Below the pieces are notes generated by a model. It saw only the letters and a list, made by a program, of their open reading frames with translations. It was not told the DNA's origin and searched no databases. Shown piece by piece: positions 32,641 to 53,052 of a DNA stretch of 64,000 nt. Source of the stretch: Bifidobacterium breve. GTDB taxonomy: Bacteria; Actinomycetota; Thermoleophilia; Solirubrobacterales; Solirubrobacteraceae. The stretch is taken from contig CAMCUD010000015.1 in assembly GCA_945878865.1 (NCBI GenBank), positions 1 to 64,000 of the forward strand. The letters run 5' to 3'. The number at the start of each line of letters is the position of its first letter. The first letter of the stretch is position 1. The translations under genes were made by a program, and so were the position numbers.

Positions 32641-32719
32641 CAGATCGGCGCCGACACGCGGATTCGTGGGCTGACTGAGACGCGTAGACGTCAGTAAACA
32701 CGGGCAAATCATGACAGAT

Positions 32720-32780
32720 TGGTCCGCCCGGTGGTCCGCCCGAAGGGTTGGTCCGCCCCGCCTTTTCAGCTGGTCCGCCC
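32720..32780. repeat. Four TGGTCCGCCC direct repeats upstream of the integrase
   Basis: Exact copies of TGGTCCGCCC at 32720, 32732, 32749 and 32771 (spacing 12, 17, 22). They lie between the tRNA fragment and the integrase start, the place where arm-type sites of tyrosine integrases or excisionase sites are found. Function inferred from position. Confidence 0.7.
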
Positions 32781-32802
32781 GGCGGTACCGTGCCAGGGAG
32801 TC

Positions 32803-34239
32803 ATGGCCGAGCACGCTCCTGATCCCGTGTCCACCGCGTTCCTGTTGGTCGAACGTCGTAAGAAGACGGGAGCCCCGGTCTGGGCGGTGAAGTGGCGGAC
32901 CGCCAGTGGCGAACGCGTGCGTCGACGGCTTGGCGCTGATGCTTGGGTCGAGCCGGCAGAGGGCGGGGGATGGCGTCCCCGGAACGGACGTGCGCCCGCG
33001 GGCACGGCGCTCACGGAGTTCCAGGCCCGCCGGCACATGCCGGAGTTCGTGCGGGCCGCCGAGGCGGAGTTTGCGGCGGCAGCCGTCAGGCGATCACAAG
33101 CGGCCGAGGCAGCGAGCGCGCGCACGTTTCGCCAGCTCGCGCACGCGTGGCTCGACCACCTGGCCGATGTTCGCGCTGCCAAACCCTCGACCCTGCGGGA
33201 CTATCGCTCCATGCTCGCTGAGCCCGGCGTCCCTCATCGGCGTGGCAGCGGGACGACGGTCGGTCGCATCATGGGCGCCCTTGGTGATCTGCCCGCATCG
33301 GCCGTGACCACACGCGATGTCGAGAAACTCCTCGCCGCGCACGCCCGCGAGGGCGTCGGCGCGCGCAGCGTCAACAAGCATCGTCAGGTGATCGCGACGA
33401 TCTTCAACTACGGGCTCCAGCCCGCTCACGCGACTGAGTGGGGCCTGATCTCAAATCCCGCCGCTGCGGCACCGAGGCGGAGGGAGGACGACCCGGTCCG
33501 TCTCGAGGTGTTCACCGTCGAGCAGATTGAGCAGCTCGCACGGGTCGCGGCATCGGGCGCGTGGCGGGCGGAGGGGACGACCGGCGAAGACGGCGAGGAC
33601 GAGCAACTGGCAGAGTTGCTGCGCGTCGCGGCGTACACAGGGCTACGCCGCGGCGAGCTAGTGGTGCTGCGCTGGCGCGATGTGCGCTGGTCCGAACGCG
33701 TCCTCGTGGTGGAGCGCGCGCTGTCTGGCGACGTTGAGGGGAGCACGAAGAGCCGCAAACCGCGATACGTGCCACTTGGCGATCAGCCTCTCGGAGCCCT
33801 TGATCGCCTCTCGCGACGCGCGAACTTCACCGGGGCGGATGACTACGTGTTCGCCGGCATTGCAGGGGACCGGCTGGACCCGTCAGCGCTTCGAAGGCGA
33901 TACGTTGCCGCCCGAGATACGGCAGGTCTCCCACCGCTGCGGTTTCACGATCTTCGCCATACCGCCGGGACGCTCCTGACTCGCGTTCTCGACCCGGTCA
34001 CGGTTCGCGACATCCTCGGGCACGCGGATCTCAAGACGACCGAGCGCTATCTCCACGCCGTTCGTGCGTCTCGCCTTGCCGATGTCGCAACTCGCGCGTT
34101 CGCCGAGGCGGCGCCGGCGGACGCGGATTCAACGGTGCGGGCGGCGCTCGAAGCGGCCGTTGCGCGGTTGGCACCGGAAGAGGCTGAGCGTCTTCTGGAA
34201 AGTATGACGAGACTGGGCGAGGAGCGGCACGTCTCGTGA
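32803..34239 (+). CDS. int: Phage-type tyrosine integrase
   Basis: 478-residue integrase with an AP2-like arm-binding N-terminus (WAVKWRTASGERVRRRLG), a SAM-like core-binding domain (about residues 110-215) and a catalytic domain: YTGLRRGELVVLRWRDV (Arg), KSRKPRYVPL (Lys), FHDLRHTAGTLLTR (His-x-x-Arg), LGHADLKTTERYLHAV (His, Tyr). ATG 32803 excludes the repeat-coded upstream frame. Located next to the tRNA-Gly fragment and pointing into the element, as usual for integrative elements; it should recombine at the tRNA 3' half. Confidence 0.9.
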   Translation: MAEHAPDPVSTAFLLVERRKKTGAPVWAVKWRTASGERVRRRLGADAWVEPAEGGGWRPRNGRAPAGTALTEFQARRHMPEFVRAAEAEFAAAAVRRSQAAEAASARTFRQLAHAWLDHLADVRAAKPSTLRDYRSMLAEPGVPHRRGSGTTVGRIMGALGDLPASAVTTRDVEKLLAAHAREGVGARSVNKHRQVIATIFNYGLQPAHATEWGLISNPAAAAPRRREDDPVRLEVFTVEQIEQLARVAASGAWRAEGTTGEDGEDEQLAELLRVAAYTGLRRGELVVLRWRDVRWSERVLVVERALSGDVEGSTKSRKPRYVPLGDQPLGALDRLSRRANFTGADDYVFAGIAGDRLDPSALRRRYVAARDTAGLPPLRFHDLRHTAGTLLTRVLDPVTVRDILGHADLKTTERYLHAVRASRLADVATRAFAEAAPADADSTVRAALEAAVARLAPEEAERLLESMTRLGEERHVS

Positions 34240-36771: not shown

Positions 36772-37776
36772 ATGAGCGACCTCCTGGCCAAGACCTACGA
36801 ATTGCATCCAGCTCCGCCTCCCGCGCTGCCGTGGGAGGACTACGTCAACCGCATGCAGACCGGTTGGCAGGACCTGCTGGCATCTCACCCGTCGGAGCGC
36901 GAGGTGCAAGCGTTCTTGGAGCGTCATCCCTCGCTCGTCCCCGGCGCGCACGTGGTTCCGGGTCAGCTTCGGAGCGGGCATGCTCCTTTCCCTTGCTCGC
37001 TGGTGACACAGCCGACCCTGACTGGCCTCACGCAGAGAACTCCGGATTTCCTGTGGATGAGCTCGGACAGCCTGACTTTCTCCCCGGTATTCGTGGAGCT
37101 CGAGGCTCCCGACAAGCCCTGGCTGACGGCCGCCGGGTACCAGAGTCACCAGCTGACCCAGGCACTGCATCAGGTCGACGAGTGGTCCGAGTGGTTCGGT
37201 CGCCTCGAGAACCGGCAAGTGTTTCTGGAGGCCTTTGAGGTCCCGTCGTACCTACGCCAGCGGAAATGGAGTCCCGTCTGGCTGTTGGTCTACGGGCGCC
37301 GCGACGAGGATCCGGAGGCCGTCAGCCGGCTTCGCTCGAGGCTGCAAACTGCCAACAGAATTGTCATGGCATACGAGCACCTTCGGCCGGACCGCGACTG
37401 CGACGACTACCTGTGCGTTCGGCGCACGTCGAACGGTTACCGGGCTGTCACAGTGCCGCCCACCGTTCGCCTTGGTCCAAGCACGGCGCGCGACCTGGCG
37501 ATCGTTGCCGGGAAAGCGGAGGCCGCTGCGATCCAGGAATGGGTCACACCTGAACGACGAGAGTTTCTCGCGGACCGATTCTCGTATTGGGACGAATGGG
37601 CGCAAGGGCAGCACGGTCTCATCTCAACTGCCGACCGCAGGTTCTTGCGACCGACATTGCTCTTCTTCAACCGACTGAACTTGATCTCCGTGGTCGTGTT
37701 TGCCGAGCGTGCAAGAGCAGCGGACACAGCCTGCTCGGCGACTGAGCGCTCCAAACGAACGGCCGCCAACGAGTAG
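36772..37776 (+). CDS. Shedu/DUF4263-like nuclease candidate
   Basis: 334 residues. The segment SEREVQAFLERHPSLV resembles the region preceding the nuclease core in Shedu (SduA) and other DUF4263 proteins, and TPDFLW (Asp92) followed by VFVELEAPDKPW (Glu109, Glu111, Lys115) resembles a PD-(D/E)XK active site with an altered third position. Shedu is an anti-phage system in other bacteria. The last about 35 residues overlap a broken DUF3800 gene on the other strand, so the native C-terminus may have been changed. Confidence 0.6.
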   Translation: MSDLLAKTYELHPAPPPALPWEDYVNRMQTGWQDLLASHPSEREVQAFLERHPSLVPGAHVVPGQLRSGHAPFPCSLVTQPTLTGLTQRTPDFLWMSSDSLTFSPVFVELEAPDKPWLTAAGYQSHQLTQALHQVDEWSEWFGRLENRQVFLEAFEVPSYLRQRKWSPVWLLVYGRRDEDPEAVSRLRSRLQTANRIVMAYEHLRPDRDCDDYLCVRRTSNGYRAVTVPPTVRLGPSTARDLAIVAGKAEAAAIQEWVTPERREFLADRFSYWDEWAQGQHGLISTADRRFLRPTLLFFNRLNLISVVVFAERARAADTACSATERSKRTAANE

Positions 37777-37850: not shown

Positions 37851-37944
37851 CGCGCGCAGTCTCTCACCGAGACCAACGCGGCATCCCGCGGTCGGGAAGT
37901 CGCCCGAAGACTTCACGGCATCCGCACGTGGCAGCAGCACGCCC

Positions 37945-37995
37945 GTTGATCTCTATCTGTTGATCTCTATGCGTTGATCTCTTGGGGTTGATCTC
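37945..37995. repeat. Four iteron-like GTTGATCTC repeats, 14-bp period
   Basis: GTTGATCTC occurs at 37945, 37959, 37973 and 37987, exactly 14 bases apart; the first two extend to GTTGATCTCTAT. The 3' end of each unit is variable. Such tandem repeats resemble replication-initiator or partition iterons. It marks the start of a non-coding stretch between cargo and replication genes. Confidence 0.8.
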
Positions 37996-38053
37996 AGAGC
38001 TCAACAGGCCGCCGCCGCGCCGCCGGCCAAGAATCCCCGTCACGCCTGACCTT

Positions 38054-38100
38054 TCGAGGAAGGGGGGTCCACCGCTTCGCGCTGGACCCCCCTTCCTCGA
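38054..38100. repeat. Perfect 18-bp inverted repeat
   Basis: TCGAGGAAGGGGGGTCCA (38054-38071) and its exact complement (38083-38100) enclose an 11-base loop. It is far stronger than a normal terminator hairpin and lies 60 bases from the GTTGATCTC repeats. From about 38110 to 38380 the + strand is purine-rich and shows no gene I can support. Candidate origin, transfer or single-strand initiation structure. Confidence 0.8.
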
Positions 38101-38609: not shown

Positions 38610-38675
38610 GGGGCTGTCAAGCGCCGCCCTGTGGGTCGCTGCGCGAGTCCTGACGGACCGTCGCTTGACAGCCCC
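38610..38675 (+). promoter_or_regulatory. Structured leader type 1, copy 1 (before ssb)
   Basis: Perfect 14-bp arms GGGGCTGTCAAGCG / CGCTTGACAGCCCC enclose 38 bases that include GTCC-TGAC-GGAC. A 54-base core (38616-38669) is 49/54 identical to 40360-40413. It ends 73 bases before the ssb ATG. Confidence 0.7.
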
Positions 38676-38742: not shown

Positions 38743-39138
38743 ATGAACCGCTGGACCGGTACCGGGCACCTCACCAAGGACCCAAAGCTCCTCGAGACCA
38801 GCAACGGCACCTCGATCTGCACGCTGCGGATCGCCGTCAAGCGCGCCGGCAAGCAGGGCCAGGACGGCTACTTCGACGTCAAGTGCTTCGACGCGCAGGC
38901 GTCGGCGTGCATGCAGTACCTGAAGGCCGGACGCGAGGTCGCCATCGACGGCCGCCTGCTGTTCGACGAGTTCAAGACGCAGGACGGCGCGTACGCCTCC
39001 CGGGTCTACATCGTCGGCGAGCGCGTCGAGTTCCTCGCCAGCCGCAACCGCACCAACGGTCAGGCCAGCCCCGAGCCGTCGCCCGATGAGCCCGTCGCCG
39101 CTGGCGGCGAGGCGCGCGAGGCCGACCCGGCCGCCTGA
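38743..39138 (+). CDS. ssb: Single-stranded DNA-binding protein
   Basis: 131-residue OB-fold protein: MNRWTGTGHLTKDPKLLETS, then VKRAGKQGQDGYFDVKCFDAQASACMQYLKAGREVAIDGRL, the usual SSB core, and an acidic, Pro-rich C-terminus lacking the canonical DDDIPF tip. AAGGAG lies 8 bases before ATG 38743. An element-coded SSB next to a primase is typical for mobile elements that replicate or transfer as single strands. The hairpin GGCCCGCGGCC-ACGAC-GGCCGCGGGCC follows the gene. Confidence 0.92.
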   Translation: MNRWTGTGHLTKDPKLLETSNGTSICTLRIAVKRAGKQGQDGYFDVKCFDAQASACMQYLKAGREVAIDGRLLFDEFKTQDGAYASRVYIVGERVEFLASRNRTNGQASPEPSPDEPVAAGGEAREADPAA

Positions 39139-39198: not shown

Positions 39199-40134
39199 AT
39201 GACCACAACCACTCTCACCAGGCACGAGACGGTCCTGCAGTTCCTGTCAGCGCTCGTCCGGAGCGACACGACGGACGAGCTGCTCGAGTTGCGTTACCGG
39301 CTCGAGGACGGGCAGGGGATGGGGCAGGTCTTCTACCGGCCCTCGCAGCTGCGAGGGCTCGCGACACGTGCGATCTCGCTCGGGCGGCGGACCGACGTCT
39401 ATGTCGGCTGCGCTCCCCGCACGCGCCGGTTCGGCGGCCGCGACGCGGTGCGCCAGGCGCACGCGCTGTGGGTCGACTGCGATGGAGATGAAGCCGTCGC
39501 CGCCCTCCGTGCGTTCCGCCCAGAGCCGGCGATCGTGATCGCCTCGGGGAGCGGCTCGAACTGCCACGCCTACTGGCCGCTGGCCGCTCCGCTTCAGCGA
39601 GACGAAATCGAGCGGGCCAATCGCCGCCTCGCGTGTGCACTTGGTGCTGACCCGGCGTCGGCTGACGCCGCGCGGATCCTGCGCGTCCCCGCGACGTGGT
39701 CGCACAAGCATCAGCCGCCGACCCCGGTCGACGCCACCGTGTTGGACCCGGGGCATCGGTTCTCCGCTGACGAGATCGTCGGCGAGCTTGCTGATCCACC
39801 GGATGAGGCGACGCCGGCGCGCGCGCTGCCCGCGCCTCGCGACAGCGGCCCCGACCCGTTGCGGAGCATCTCGCCGGACGTCTACGTGCAGCGGTTACTC
39901 GGAGTGACCGTGCCGCGGCACCGCAAGGTGCCGTGTCCGTTCCACGACGACAAGCATGCAAGCCTGCACGTCTACGGGACGCCCGAGCGCGGCTGGTACT
40001 GCTTCGGGCGCTGTCGCCGCGGCGGGTCGATCTACGACCTCGCCGGCCCGCTGTTCGGATACGCCACGACCGGCCAGCAGTTCCTGCAGCTCCAGACAGA
40101 GCTGCGGCGACTCTTCGGACTGGACCACGAGTGA
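39199..40134 (+). CDS. Primase: RepB-type AEP domain with C-terminal CHC2 zinc finger
   Basis: 311 residues. N-terminal part has the archaeo-eukaryotic-type (RepB_primase) features: DVYVGCAPR, the metal-binding pair in ALWVDCDGD (Asp93, Asp95), SGSGSNCHAYWPL with His123, and RILRVPATWSHK. The C-terminal part is a CHC2 finger, VPCPFHDDKHASLHVYG with Cys246 and His249 and YCFGRCRRGG with Cys268 and Cys272, which in DnaG-type primases is N-terminal. No TOPRIM domain follows. Likely primes replication of the element. The next small gene overlaps the stop (GTGATG). Confidence 0.85.
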   Translation: MTTTTLTRHETVLQFLSALVRSDTTDELLELRYRLEDGQGMGQVFYRPSQLRGLATRAISLGRRTDVYVGCAPRTRRFGGRDAVRQAHALWVDCDGDEAVAALRAFRPEPAIVIASGSGSNCHAYWPLAAPLQRDEIERANRRLACALGADPASADAARILRVPATWSHKHQPPTPVDATVLDPGHRFSADEIVGELADPPDEATPARALPAPRDSGPDPLRSISPDVYVQRLLGVTVPRHRKVPCPFHDDKHASLHVYGTPERGWYCFGRCRRGGSIYDLAGPLFGYATTGQQFLQLQTELRRLFGLDHE

Positions 40135-40397
40135 TGGGCCAAGCGCGGCCGTCGCACGACTTCTCCTACGTCACGACAGAGATCCCGGAAGGCATGACGA
40201 TCCGCGAGTGGCGCCGCCAGCGCGACCCCAAGCCGGCCAGCTCACCCAACCGGCGGTCGCAAGTCCACGCGACGGTCCGAGCATTCGTCCACACCCTGGT
40301 ACGTCGCGGAGGTGGCGCTCGGTCAGGGCTCGCAGCCAAGCACGGCGTGCTCGGCGGCCGTCAAGCTCCGCCCTTCGGGTCGCTCCGCGAGTCCTGA
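40134..40397 (+). CDS. Small mobile-element hypothetical protein
   Basis: 87 residues from ATG 40134 (GTG 40131 is possible). The block DFSYVTTEIPEGMTIREWRRQR is a conserved-looking helix-rich motif; the C-terminal 15 residues are encoded by the repeated leader type 1 copy 2, so the stop codon lies inside that structure. No function known. Confidence 0.6.
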   Translation: MGQARPSHDFSYVTTEIPEGMTIREWRRQRDPKPASSPNRRSQVHATVRAFVHTLVRRGGGARSGLAAKHGVLGGRQAPPFGSLRES

Positions 40398-40418
40398 CGG
40401 ACCGTGGCTTGACCGCCA
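40356..40418 (+). promoter_or_regulatory. Structured leader type 1, copy 2
   Basis: GTCAAGC / GCTTGAC arms (40360-40366, 40407-40413), with three further pairs outside after one mismatch. The 54-base core differs from copy 1 at five positions; the pair next to the 7-bp arms changes from G-C to T-G, keeping pairing. It ends 29 bases before ATG 40443. Confidence 0.65.
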
Positions 40419-40442: not shown

Positions 40443-40754
40443 ATGACCAATCACCACCAGCCGGCGAGCACCCCAAGCGGTCCGCCGCCCACACCGCGCC
40501 AGCAGCGCTACCTCCGCCAGCTGGCCATCCAGCGAGGCGTCACGTTCGTCGTCCCGACGACCCGCGCCGAAGCATCCCGCGCCATCGACGCGCTGAAGCG
40601 CCGCAAGCCCGAGCCGTTCGCTGACCGGAGCCGCGAGATCCGCGCTGTGCAGCGCGACATGGCGTGCAACCGGGGCGACGACGCTCGCGTCCTGCACGAC
40701 GTCGAGACCGAGGGCTACGGACGCACCGCCACTTGGAAGCGGGACGACTCATGA
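40443..40754 (+). CDS. Small hypothetical protein
   Basis: 103 residues. The region PTPRQQRYLRQLAIQRGVTFVVPTTRAEASRAIDALKRRK resembles the short DUF3072-like helix domain found in actinobacterial mobile elements and prophages. C-terminus is charged. ATGA overlap with the following gene shows translational coupling. Confidence 0.65.
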   Translation: MTNHHQPASTPSGPPPTPRQQRYLRQLAIQRGVTFVVPTTRAEASRAIDALKRRKPEPFADRSREIRAVQRDMACNRGDDARVLHDVETEGYGRTATWKRDDS

Positions 40755-41035: not shown

Positions 41036-41053
41036 TCGCGGCCACCCGTCGAC

Positions 41054-41116
41054 GGGCCGACCGCCACCCGAGGATGGCACGCCCTGGCGGGCGCGCGGGT
41101 GGCGGGGGATCGGCCC
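41054..41116 (+). promoter_or_regulatory. Structured leader type 2, copy A (before parB-like gene)
   Basis: Nested stems: GGGCCGA/TCGGCCC (outer, 41054-41060 with 41110-41116), GCCACCCG/CGGGTGGC (middle, 41063-41070 with 41096-41103), CGCCC-TGGC-GGGCG (inner). 63 bases, ending 39 bases before ATG 41156. 54/63 identical to copy B at 42811-42873, which sits at the same distance from its gene. Confidence 0.75.
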
Positions 41117-41155
41117 GCCAACGGGGCGGGCCAGCCGAGGTCCAGGAGGACCCAG

Positions 41156-42796
41156 ATGACCACCGCCACGCAATCCGGTCAGCGCGTCGAAGTCGCTCGG
41201 ATCCACATCCCGGAGAACATCCGCGGGCTCGACGACGAGCACGTCGCGGCCCTCGCGGGCTCCATCCAGCTGCAAGGGGTCCTCGTCCCACTGGTCGTCC
41301 GGGAGATCGCGGACGGCTACGAGCTCGTCGCCGGATTCCACCGCATCGCCGCCGTCCAGTCCCTCGGCCTGACCGAGGTGCCCGTCGTCATCCGCGAGGC
41401 CGACAACGAGGACGCCGACCGCGCGGTCGAGAACATCGCGCGCAAGCAGCTCAACCCGTACGAAGAGGCCAAGGCGGTCAGCGCAATGCTCGCCCGAGGC
41501 TTCAGCGAAGACGGGACCGCGCAGGCCCTCGGCTGGTCCAAGGCCCGCATCACCGCGCGGATGAAGATCCTCGAGCTGCCCGAGCGCGCGCAGGAGATGA
41601 TCGGCGAGAACCTGATCCCGCTCAGCGCCGTCGACCAGCTGCGCTCGATCGGCACCGTCTCGCCCGACCTGCTGGACCTCGTCGTCCGCTACCTCGACGG
41701 CGACAACGCGTGGGCGGCCGAGCGACTCGCGCGCGAGCCCGGCTGGGTGCTCGACGCGGCCATGTCGCAGGGCGAAGACCGGCGCGTATTCGCCGCCTAT
41801 CTCGACCGCGCGAGCGGGCACCAGATCGCCGAGCTGCGGCTCGGCAAGAAGACCGACCAGCTGTACGCCAAAGCCGACGAGCTTCACCACCAGCTCGACC
41901 GCTACGCCTATGGCCCGCCCGACATCCGCTTCATTGACGACGACATCGACCGAGCGCGCGCCGCGGGCGTGCTGATCGAGTTCGAGCACCGCCGGCCGGT
42001 CATCGTCGACCGCGCCGTCTACCGAGAGCTCGTCCGCGACGCGGTCAAGCGCACCGTCACCGAGCTCGAGACGAAAATCGCCGAGGCCGCCGCAGCCAAG
42101 AAGTCGGCCCGCTCCACCGCGAAGCCGGCCGATCCCGTAGCCGTCGCCAAGCGCGAGCGCGACGGCCAGCTGCGCGAGCTCGCCGACCAAGCGCACAGCG
42201 TCAACCTCGACCTCGGCCACGCGCTGCTCCACGACCTGGCCGCCGTTGACCCCACGGACATGAACGTTGCCCGGTTCTTCGTCTACGCGCTGCTCGGCGC
42301 TGACCACGACAGCTCCCCGTACACGCAGACCGGCGAGCGCATCGTCCGGATCGCCGCGGGCGGCGTCCGTCTCATGGTCGAGGAGCTGCGCACCGACGTC
42401 ACGAAGACCAAGAAGGACGGCAGCCGCGGCCGGCTGCGGATCGACTACGGCGATCACCGCGACCCGCAGGCCGCGATCGCCTGGCTATGGAAGTTCGTCG
42501 ACGGCGCGAAGACCGCGGGCGAGCTCTACGGCCGGGCGCTCGTCGTCATCGCCGCCGAGCAGCACGCGAGCCGGCTCGTCGTCAGCCCGAGTCAGCGGAC
42601 GCCGGCGACCCGGTGGAGCTCCCACAAGGACCACGCCGAGAAGGCGCTGCGGAAGCTCGCGGGGCCCCACGTCCCGGCGTCCCTGACGAAGCTCGAGCGG
42701 TCCGTCAAGCGGGTGCATGCGGCGTACGAGCGCGCGGAGACCGAGGCGCGCACCAGCGGTGGCACGTTCTCCTCGGACGAGGAGCGCGCCGCGTAG
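41156..42796 (+). CDS. ParB/Spo0J-like nuclease-domain protein
   Basis: 546 residues. The N-terminal ParB domain shows VARIHIPENIRGLDDEHV, SIQLQGVLVPLVVREI, YELVAGFHRIAAVQSLG and NEDADRAVENIARKQLNPYEEAKAVSAML (boxes I-II), then an HTH-like AQALGWSKARITARMKILELP. The long C-terminal half (residues about 210-546) is not recognised. Such large ParB-like proteins occur in actinobacterial plasmids and integrative elements; no ParA is nearby, so a role in segregation is uncertain. Good Shine-Dalgarno CAGGAGGA. Confidence 0.85.
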   Translation: MTTATQSGQRVEVARIHIPENIRGLDDEHVAALAGSIQLQGVLVPLVVREIADGYELVAGFHRIAAVQSLGLTEVPVVIREADNEDADRAVENIARKQLNPYEEAKAVSAMLARGFSEDGTAQALGWSKARITARMKILELPERAQEMIGENLIPLSAVDQLRSIGTVSPDLLDLVVRYLDGDNAWAAERLAREPGWVLDAAMSQGEDRRVFAAYLDRASGHQIAELRLGKKTDQLYAKADELHHQLDRYAYGPPDIRFIDDDIDRARAAGVLIEFEHRRPVIVDRAVYRELVRDAVKRTVTELETKIAEAAAAKKSARSTAKPADPVAVAKRERDGQLRELADQAHSVNLDLGHALLHDLAAVDPTDMNVARFFVYALLGADHDSSPYTQTGERIVRIAAGGVRLMVEELRTDVTKTKKDGSRGRLRIDYGDHRDPQAAIAWLWKFVDGAKTAGELYGRALVVIAAEQHASRLVVSPSQRTPATRWSSHKDHAEKALRKLAGPHVPASLTKLERSVKRVHAAYERAETEARTSGGTFSSDEERAA

Positions 42797-42810
42797 CGCG
42801 CTGCGGCGCG

Positions 42811-42873
42811 CGGGCCGATCGCCACCCGAGCGTGGCACGCCCTGGCGGGCGTGCGGGCGGCGAGACTTCGGCC
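42811..42873 (+). promoter_or_regulatory. Structured leader type 2, copy B (before ardC-like gene)
   Basis: GGGCCGA/TCGGCCC, GCCACCCG/CGGGCGGC (one A-C mismatch), GCACGCCC-TGGC-GGGCGTGC inner stem (perfect 8 bp here, interrupted in copy A). Ends exactly 39 bases before ATG 42913, as in copy A. Confidence 0.75.
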
Positions 42874-42912
42874 CGCGCACCCGGCGCGGGCGACCCGAAG
42901 CAGGAGCCCGTC

Positions 42913-43818
42913 ATGGCCCGCCGATCCACGAAGAAGTCCCTCTCGCCCGCCGAACGCGAGGCGCGTCGCAAGGCCGACCGCGAGCGCCTCGAGCAGGCGG
43001 CTCGCGCTCTCCTGACCACGGACGGATGGCAGCGCTGGATTCGCGTGCGCGCGCGCAACGGCCTCTCGCGCTACAGCGTCGGCAACCAGCTGCTCATCGC
43101 CATTGACTGCCACCTGCGCGGGATCACGCCGACCTACGTCGCCGGCTTTCGCACCTTCCTCGACCTGAACCGCTGCGTGCGCAAGGGAGAGCGCGCGATC
43201 AAGATCCTCGCGCCGTGCCCGGTCAAAGAGCGCGACGACACCGGCGAGGAGACGGGGGAGAGGAAGGTCTTCTTCCGGTCCGTTCCCGTCTTTGACGTGA
43301 GCATGACCGAGCCGCTCCCGGGGAAGGAAGCCATCGCGCTCGAGCCGCCCTGCGAACCGATCATCGGCGAGAGCCACCAGCACCTGGTCGGGCCGCTCGT
43401 CGCGCTCGCCTCTGACCTCGGCTACGCGGTCGAGTTCCGCGACCTCCAGGAGCACGGGCCGCAGGGCTGGTGCGACGCGAAGGCCAAGCGGATCGTCATC
43501 GCGAGCGGTCCGGCCAACGGCCAGGTCCGAACCCTCACACACGAGATCGCGCACGCACTCGGCATCGGATACGAGCAATACGGCCGCGAGCACGCCGAGG
43601 TCCTCGTCGACTGCGTCACCTATGTCGTCTGCTCGTCGGTCGGTCTCGACATCGGCGGCGAGTCCATCCCCTATGTCGCCGGCTGGGGCGAAGACGGAGC
43701 CCTCGAAGCCGTCCGCGAGTACGCCGACACGGTGGACGCGCTCGCCCGGCGCATCGAAGACGCCCTGACGGCAAGCAGCGAGCCGGCACCGGCGGACCTC
43801 CCCGAGTCGATCGCCTAA
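42913..43818 (+). CDS. ArdC-like antirestriction/ssDNA-binding metallopeptidase-fold protein
   Basis: 301 residues. The N-terminal region (YSVGNQLLIAIDCHLRGI... RTFLDLNRCVRKGERAIKIL) matches the ArdC ssDNA-binding domain (DUF1738), and the C-terminal half is an ImmA/IrrE-like zincin with HEIAH at residues 210-214 and a second acidic region GREHAEVLVD. In plasmids ArdC protects entering DNA from restriction. The protein is shorter than classical ArdC but has both parts. The upstream leader type 2 may control it. Confidence 0.82.
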   Translation: MARRSTKKSLSPAEREARRKADRERLEQAARALLTTDGWQRWIRVRARNGLSRYSVGNQLLIAIDCHLRGITPTYVAGFRTFLDLNRCVRKGERAIKILAPCPVKERDDTGEETGERKVFFRSVPVFDVSMTEPLPGKEAIALEPPCEPIIGESHQHLVGPLVALASDLGYAVEFRDLQEHGPQGWCDAKAKRIVIASGPANGQVRTLTHEIAHALGIGYEQYGREHAEVLVDCVTYVVCSSVGLDIGGESIPYVAGWGEDGALEAVREYADTVDALARRIEDALTASSEPAPADLPESIA

Positions 43819-43834: not shown

Positions 43835-43941
43835 GGGCTGCATGCCCCATGGTCGGACGCCGCGACGGCCAGGGCGGCGCGGACAGGGTGCGTGGCGGTG
43901 CTCTCGCCGACGCGGCGTCCGCGGTGCGGAGCATGCAGCCC
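43835..43941 (+). promoter_or_regulatory. Long nested dyad before the sigma-factor gene
   Basis: GGGCTGCATGC (43835-43845) pairs perfectly with GCATGCAGCCC (43931-43941), and inside it GGACGCCGCG (43855-43864) pairs with CGCGGCGTCC (43911-43920). It ends 27 bases before ATG 43969. Different from leader types 1 and 2 in sequence. Confidence 0.6.
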
Positions 43942-43968
43942 CGAACCGCATCCACCACAGCTGCCGTC

Positions 43969-44469
43969 ATGGGCGACGAAGAGGCCCTATTCCGCCGGCA
44001 CCACGCCGAGCTCCGACGCGCGGTCCGGCACGTCGTCAACGCGTCGCCCGAGCTGGTCGAGGACGCCTGCCAGATCGCCTGGACGCAGCTGCTCCGCAAC
44101 CAGCCCCGCCGCGAGTCCGTCTTCGGCTGGCTGCGGCAGGTCGCGATCCACGAGGCGTATCGCCTCTCCCGGATCGAGCGGCGCGAGCTCCGACTCGACC
44201 TGCTCCCGGGCGACCGACAGCGCGCGATCCGCGACGGGTTCGACCTCGACAACTCCGTCCGCGCGCGCGAGGCGCTCCGCCTGCTCGCCTCGCTGCCGGA
44301 GAAGCAGCGCCGCGACTACGCCCTCCACGCCGCCGGATTCACCTACAAGGAGATCGCCGAGCTGAGCGGCCGGACCCGCACCAACGTCGACAAGACGCTG
44401 GACAGAGCCCGCGCCCGCATCAGGCTCGAGCGCCTGCGGGCACACCCCGGCGCGCGAGGGGCCAAGTAG
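43969..44469 (+). CDS. ECF-type sigma-70 family factor
   Basis: 166 residues from ATG 43969 (43933 is possible but lies in the dyad). Region 2 appears as EEALFRRHHAELRRAVRHVVNASPELVEDACQIAWTQLLRNQ with ESVFGWLRQVAIHEAYRL, region 4 as LASLPEKQRRDYALHAAGFTYKEIAELSGRTRTNVDKTLDRARARI. No anti-sigma gene adjoins, only a 55-residue protein. A sigma factor in a mobile element may control element functions or cargo. Confidence 0.85.
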   Translation: MGDEEALFRRHHAELRRAVRHVVNASPELVEDACQIAWTQLLRNQPRRESVFGWLRQVAIHEAYRLSRIERRELRLDLLPGDRQRAIRDGFDLDNSVRAREALRLLASLPEKQRRDYALHAAGFTYKEIAELSGRTRTNVDKTLDRARARIRLERLRAHPGARGAK

Positions 44470-52040: not shown

Positions 52041-52116
52041 GATGCGCCGTCCGAATTGCTAACGTCCCGGCCGAGCCGAGTCGTGGCCGCCCTGCGGCCG
52101 TGTACGGGGGACCCAG

Positions 52117-53052
52117 ATGTCCCGGGGCGAATCGGTCGGTCTCGGCCGTAGCGCGTCAGCGCAAGCCCGTCAGCTAACCCCGGAGGCTCGACGACGACCA
52201 CAACACCATCGCGTGCTGCGCCGAGCTGCCTTCATCCCGATCGTCGCCTCCACGATCCTGCTGATCTCGACCGAGCCAGCACAGGCGGAGGGCGGAGCCG
52301 CGGCGTTCGCCGAGCCCGAGCTCGAACGCATCGAGTGCGTCACCCCGAAGGGCGAGGCCTGCTCGACCGAACGGGTTCCCGCCGGCGCACAGGTGCGCAT
52401 GCTCGGGACGGACCTTCGCCAAGTGCGGCAAGTCGTGTTTCGCGGTGGGTCCGGCGGGCGCGACGACATCGCGGCGCGCGTCACCCACGCTGGAGCGCGC
52501 CACGCCGACGTCCAGGTACCGGGGAAGGCCCGCACCGGACCACTCGACCTCGTGGTCCTTGGTGGGACCACAACCCGCGCGGTGCGGCGGCTGGTCGTCG
52601 AAACGCTGGCGCTCCCTGCCGCGCAGCGCGACGACCACGTCTTCCCGATCCAGGGCCGCCACGACGTCGGGCAGAGCGAGACGAACAACTTCGGCGGCGG
52701 GCGAGGCCACCAGGGGCAGGACATGTTCGCGGACTGCGGCACCCCGCTGGTGGCCGCCCAGGGCGGGACCGTGCGGATCGCAAAGGCCGACCACCCTCGC
52801 GCCGGGAACTATCTCGTGATCACCGGTGCGACCAGCGGACTCGACTACGTCTACATGCACCTGCAGGCCCCGCCCACCGTCGAGACCGGCGACCCGGTGA
52901 CGACGGGACAGCCCCTCGGTGCGGTCGGCGACACCGGCAATGCCTCCGGCTGCCACCTGCACTTCGAGCTGTGGTCCGCGCCCGGCTGGTACCGCGGCGG
53001 CGCGCCCATCGACCCGCTCCCGCGCGTGCGGGCGTGGGATCCAGACCACTGA
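52117..53052 (+). CDS. Secreted M23 (LytM-type) peptidase
   Basis: 311 residues. A hydrophobic signal follows residue 33 (VLRRAAFIPIVASTILLISTEPAQA), giving either a long n-region from ATG 52117 or a GTG start at 52213. The C-terminal M23 domain has GHQGQDMFADCG (HxxxD) and SGCHLHFELW (HxH), the zinc ligands. Middle region (about residues 60-160) is a beta-rich domain of unknown type (IPT-like). Cuts peptidoglycan peptide bridges; with the BlaI-type dyad it suggests a cell-wall response. Confidence 0.87.
   Translation: MSRGESVGLGRSASAQARQLTPEARRRPQHHRVLRRAAFIPIVASTILLISTEPAQAEGGAAAFAEPELERIECVTPKGEACSTERVPAGAQVRMLGTDLRQVRQVVFRGGSGGRDDIAARVTHAGARHADVQVPGKARTGPLDLVVLGGTTTRAVRRLVVETLALPAAQRDDHVFPIQGRHDVGQSETNNFGGGRGHQGQDMFADCGTPLVAAQGGTVRIAKADHPRAGNYLVITGATSGLDYVYMHLQAPPTVETGDPVTTGQPLGAVGDTGNASGCHLHFELWSAPGWYRGGAPIDPLPRVRAWDPDH

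Follow-up and report, generated by a model that had tools for sequence, protein, structure and literature searches.

The window analysed here is a stretch of 64,000 nucleotides (nt) at the start of contig CAMCUD010000015.1 (assembly GCA_945878865.1, deposited as Bifidobacterium breve; GTDB lineage Solirubrobacterales, Solirubrobacteraceae). At 41-43 kb it holds two copies of a hairpin element with a G+C content of ~80%, one just upstream of a ParB-like gene and the other just upstream of an ArdC-like gene. The original prediction described two 63-base copies identical at 54 of 63 positions, and we recovered exactly this match at an offset of 1758. The pair is one of only two direct-repeat families of at least 28 nt at 35-50 kb of the window. 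In the register of our covariance model each copy is 65 nt long, with 56 of 65 positions identical. Both copies had also been placed exactly 39 bases before their genes. This is correct for copy 1 (41054-41116, relative to the parB ATG at 41156), whereas copy 2 ends at 42874 in the 54/63 register, 38 bases 5' of the ardC ATG at 42913; the end given for it, 42873, is one base out of register, with an identity there of 22/63. In the model register the distances are 38 and 37 bases, respectively.

The three stems of the original prediction stood up as well. Both copies fold better than shuffled sequences on either strand, with z-scores of -2.2 and -4.8 on the + strand and of -6.9 and -5.9 on the - strand, and three stacked helices recur in the relatives described below. 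That description was incomplete, however, having missed a conserved bulge and an alternative hairpin.

A family of elements with two exclusive folds

The covariance model was built in two rounds and gave 77 matches. Ten reverse-strand rows were excluded, nine of them the opposite strand of counted elements and one (L069:754-808) a weak separate match (E 0.21), leaving 67 curated elements that include weak members with E up to 0.12. They come from mobile islands of related soil bacteria: 27 of 146 genomes examined in the same family (Solirubrobacterales) carry them. In a phylum-wide sample of 296 genomes, few of them from this family, only the window's own genome carried elements (0 of 295 others). 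ParB and element-pattern searches of viral contigs found one distant ParB relative and no element, and a ParB search of plasmids gave only partial, mostly N-terminal, similarity.

All 67 elements share three stacked helices and one orientation relative to the downstream gene. Read on the + strand, the outer helix has a core of 8 bp, extendable in many copies to about 14-17 bp. The middle helix, of ~9 bp, is accompanied by a 7-nt bulge on the 5' side, and the inner helix usually begins with GCAC and closes a loop of 3-4 nt (~30 nt in Solirubrobacter loci), with a bulge on the 3' side that is usually 3-4 nt. The 7-nt bulge reads NANNNTN, in which position 2 is A and position 6 is T, each in 66 of 67 elements. 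The fixed distance of the original prediction is nearly so across the family: in 60 of 63 scorable elements a gap of 30-44 nt (median 38) separates the element's end from the start codon, and a Shine-Dalgarno sequence accompanies this spacing.

In an alignment of 27 sequences, both sides had changed in 20 of 25 pairs, which none of 500 shuffles reached, and 89.5% of the cells paired, compared with 76.9% after shuffling and 38-48% in slid controls. The recurrence of the three-helix architecture at a near-fixed distance is far beyond chance, and these findings support selection on the element's structure. Comparisons within genomes yielded 107 compensated differences in the outer helix, with one-sided differences also common (144); thus what is kept is the pairing and not a particular sequence.

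An alternative partner for the 3' arm of the outer helix is a segment just downstream, with which it can form a hairpin of 8 bp with a 5-nt loop. At least seven of the eight pairs are Watson-Crick in 44 of the 67 elements, versus 2% after shuffling of the downstream segment, and all eight are in 22, versus 0.1%. The register of this helix is nearly constant, and both-sided changes number 37 versus 22.9 in shuffles. Since both helices use the bases of the outer 3' arm, the alternative hairpin excludes the outer helix. The long hairpin is the more stable, and the short one is therefore plausible only if a missing or blocked 5' outer arm keeps the long one from forming.

The covariance search upstream of parB and ardC genes that the original prediction had proposed thus found the element before 21 ParB and 19 ArdC genes; a further eight precede DUF932 genes, five response-regulator-like genes and two sigma-factor genes, the last being relatives of the sigma gene in the window. 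The remaining downstream genes are of unknown kind or single cases. Entry-related functions, as had been claimed, are well represented in this list, and in two relatives the islands concerned carry conjugation machinery. Even if they were to act as RNA or as operators, the elements form a large cis-regulatory family, previously undescribed, in which a choice of conformation is built in.

The host module

The two copies belong to a gene block common to relatives that extends from about 37943 to about 44691 (Table 1). Svornostia abyssi, Paraconexibacter antarcticus and Solirubrobacter are among the Solirubrobacterales that have ParB homologues in the same gene neighbourhood, in which ssb, primase, DUF3072-like, ArdC and sigma genes and a small open reading frame occur in varying combinations. 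At the left edge of the block, the GTTGATCT repeats and the inverted repeat mark the limit of homology with Svornostia (G258), and they are also present in a further genome (G356), from 37958. These repeats could be an oriT, iterons or a ParB centromere.

Table 1 Elements and genes of the module in the window.
Feature	Position	Strand	Details
Element copy 1, core	41053..41117	+	Fold and covariance model
Copy 1, outer helix	41053-41060/41110-41117	+	Outer stem extendable to 41045-41125
Copy 1, interior		+	Middle helix, 7-nt bulge GAGGATG, then inner helix GCACGCCC/GGGCGCGC
Copy 1, apex		+	TGGC loop on inner helix; 4-nt 3' bulge
Copy 1, alternative hairpin	41112..41132	+	GGCCCGCC-AACGG-GGCGGGCC
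Element copy 2, core	42811..42875	+	Bulge GAGCGTG; outer stem extendable to 42805-42881
Copy 2, alternative hairpin	42871..42891	+	GCCCGCGC-ACCCG-GCGCGGGC; 8-bp register read from sequence
ParB-like gene	41156..42796	+	ParB_N and HTH_ParB, 546 amino acids; homologues 44-76% identical
ArdC-like gene	42913..43818	+	ArdcN, 301 amino acids
Sigma-70-family gene (extracytoplasmic function-like)	43849..44469	+	Start uncertain; relatives in module
ssb gene	38743..39138	+	Same module
RepB-type/CHC2 primase-like gene	39199..40134	+
DUF3072-like gene	40443..40754	+
Left edge of shared module	37943..38100	.	Four 14-bp-spaced GTTGATCT repeats; inverted repeat 38054-38100

In Svornostia the module is immediately preceded by genes for a TrbL-like protein, a TraG/VirB4-type ATPase, an M23/SLT protein and a TrwB/TraD-type coupling protein, and in Solirubrobacter (G157) by genes for a coupling protein and a VirB4-type ATPase. 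Between the coupling protein and the module of Svornostia (L044:512-2602) is a 697-amino-acid protein that matches nothing in Pfam or the PDB and, in NCBIfam, has a sub-threshold match only, a candidate unrecognised relaxase. Tyrosine integrases are found near the module, in the window at 32698-34236. A defence-type gene with a Shedu (SduA C-terminal) domain lies beside the module at 36772-37776. Inserts of roughly 4-5 kb split ArdC near residue 55 (L041 and L044) and ParB (L048, L050 and L054), the one in L044 encoding a phage-integrase-family protein.

A second hairpin family ("type 1") occurs in the window at 38612-38673 and 40356-40417, before ssb and the DUF3072-like gene. It has an outer stem GTCAAGC/GCTTGAC around apparent small inner hairpins with CTGACGG. 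Type 1 hairpins are also present in L061, L065 and L072, the L065 copy apparently again just before a DUF3072-like gene.

Which molecule folds

RNA helices tolerate G.U but not A.C pairs. We counted such wobble cells in the two well-aligned helices, outer and inner, in an alignment fitted with a model of the mRNA strand; the middle helix, poorly aligned at 65% Watson-Crick, was for that reason not counted. On the mRNA strand there were 17 G.T and 30 A.C cells, and in the alternative helix 12 and 13. Known RNAs from the same family of genomes behave differently, with G.U:A.C ratios of 110:9 for the sense strand of the signal recognition particle (SRP) RNA and 7:1 for the thiamine pyrophosphate (TPP) riboswitch. 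When the SRP RNA consensus was folded without G.U, the ratio was 14:1 on the sense strand and 1:14 on the antisense strand. The element differs from SRP RNA at a Fisher p of 2e-13, a naive count in that related sequences are not independent. Calibration on TPP with single-sequence folds blind to G.U left too few informative cells, and the alignment-based TPP and SRP counts were used in its place. Sense-mRNA folding is therefore unlikely and we infer that DNA, rather than sense mRNA, folds, with weak support for the template strand as the slightly more likely one.

These counts bear most directly on post-transcriptional control, one of the two modes that the original prediction had put forward. 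The element would then be a structured mRNA leader, in a 5' untranslated or intergenic region, that a protein, a ligand or the ribosome switches into the alternative fold beside the ribosome-binding site, much as in an attenuator. The near-fixed distance to a start codon with its Shine-Dalgarno sequence is what such a leader predicts. Mutually exclusive hairpins are classic for RNA switches, and asymmetric bulges with near-invariant bases resemble a protein or ligand site. Structured leaders and riboswitches in Rfam likewise combine conserved, bulged structure close upstream of start codons with mutually exclusive helices. Unlike them, the element has no preference for G.U over A.C in either set of helices, and neither an Rfam search of the window nor a relaxed search of 40.9-43.0 kb gave a family match at 41-43 kb. 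There is also no T-run terminator at the element. On balance we consider an mRNA leader unlikely. The sole Rfam match in the window is a cyclic di-AMP riboswitch (RF00379) at 52074-52188 on the + strand.

Operator control, the other mode proposed, fares slightly worse. Inverted and direct half-sites (O5, O3 and X) would be bound as duplex DNA by a regulator encoded in the module. O3 and X do make an 8-5-8 dyad, the module encodes helix-turn-helix proteins (ParB and sigma), and wobble neutrality is compatible with duplex DNA. However, elements of the same genome differ in arm sequence while pairing persists, which disfavours a simple double-stranded operator, and long stacked helices with conserved bulges would be unnecessary for one. 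We regard this reading as distinctly unlikely.

Among known hairpins, RNA-polymerase-dependent single-strand origins (sso) and RSF1010 ssi sites work on transfer or rolling-circle DNA in its single-stranded form. An ssi/sso-like priming site, recognised by the RepB-type primase of the module to start the complementary strand, is highly improbable: the module does encode a RepB_primase/CHC2 protein and folding as DNA is compatible with it, but those sites are origins, neither linked to gene starts nor repeated per gene, a priming site would not be expected to keep a constant distance of ~38 nt from the start codons of particular gene families, and no primase homologue was detected in several element-bearing loci.

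A possible hairpin of the incoming strand

The closest counterparts of the element are Frpo and ssi in the leading regions of F and ColIb-P9, where repeated hairpins stand before leading genes, a setting that the gene content of the module fits. Early expression of the F leading region requires Frpo1, which precedes ygeA/ygeB, and Frpo2, which precedes ssb ... psiB, and the fold rebuilds the -35 and -10 boxes (PMC9849209). Frpo1 and Frpo2 are near-identical to each other, as are the window's two copies. The F leading region also holds the same kinds of genes as the module, namely antirestriction, ssb, ParB-family and DUF932 genes. Together with psiB they all point the same way in F, and traM and traJ come after them. 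The ParB N-terminal domains of F and module proteins are related. The Solirubrobacterales element differs from Frpo in its ~80% G+C, its near-fixed 38-nt spacing to the ATG, its alternative hairpin and the lack of a -35 box. We found no family-level sequence similarity between the two, only one shared self-complementary GC stretch of 13-14 nt (E 0.03 or worse), and took such short matches to reflect chance or convergence of hairpin apices. Without a -35 box or a family-level match, the element cannot be filed as Frpo. The folding energy of the F Frpo region was dropped as a strand control, the stem found there probably not being the published Frpo core.

We tentatively favour, at somewhat less than even confidence, a DNA hairpin on the incoming single strand, Frpo-like in role, in the establishment module of Solirubrobacterales integrative conjugative elements. 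This cis-acting family would belong to a leading-region-like module, with one hairpin before each of several key genes, ending ~38 nt 5' of the start codon. The folding molecule would probably be DNA, most likely the template strand of these genes, single-stranded after transfer, and the fold would probably permit parB, ardC and similar genes to be transcribed early, the role that Frpo has on F. The alternative hairpin may form when the 5' outer arm is lacking or occupied; examples would be a transcript whose start lies within the element and an incoming strand whose far arm has yet to arrive. In favour of this reading we count the covariation, the constant orientation, the 30-44 nt spacing, the kinds of downstream genes, the type IV secretion system and coupling protein block adjoining the module in relatives, the wobble pattern against sense RNA, and the F leading region with its shared gene kinds. 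A more specific version, that this undescribed, gene-start-linked DNA hairpin family with two exclusive folds provides single-strand-activated promoters in conjugation of Actinomycetota, possibly read by the island's sigma factor, is doubtful.

Several observations weigh against the incoming-strand reading. Inspection of the folded element by eye revealed no -35 box, and scanning 40.7-43.1 kb for sigma-70 sites yielded none. The A and T of the NANNNTN bulge have the spacing of -11A and -7T in a -10 element, but this resemblance is symmetric between strands, and a 7-nt bulge without opposite bases is an awkward promoter geometry; for both reasons the likeness to an unpaired -10 carries little weight. 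The bulge as the -10 of a promoter on the + duplex was rejected because no -35 is suitably spaced from it. Any bias towards the template strand is weak (30:17, p 0.08; 35:20, p 0.06 in folds blind to G.U; relatedness ignored in both). No conjugation genes were among those examined in this window's island, and neither an oriT nor a relaxase was located. Were the repeats at 37.9 kb an oriT, the transferred strand would be the non-template strand, and the oriT position is the main fact that could overturn the strand assignment.

If the hairpins do act on the incoming strand, a high-G+C lineage of Actinomycetota would have single-strand promoters. Their architecture would differ from that of the Frpo sequences with which searches have been made so far, and the family would be findable by covariance search. 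Early anti-restriction expression, before the transferred DNA becomes double-stranded, would then be testable in conjugative elements outside enterobacteria.
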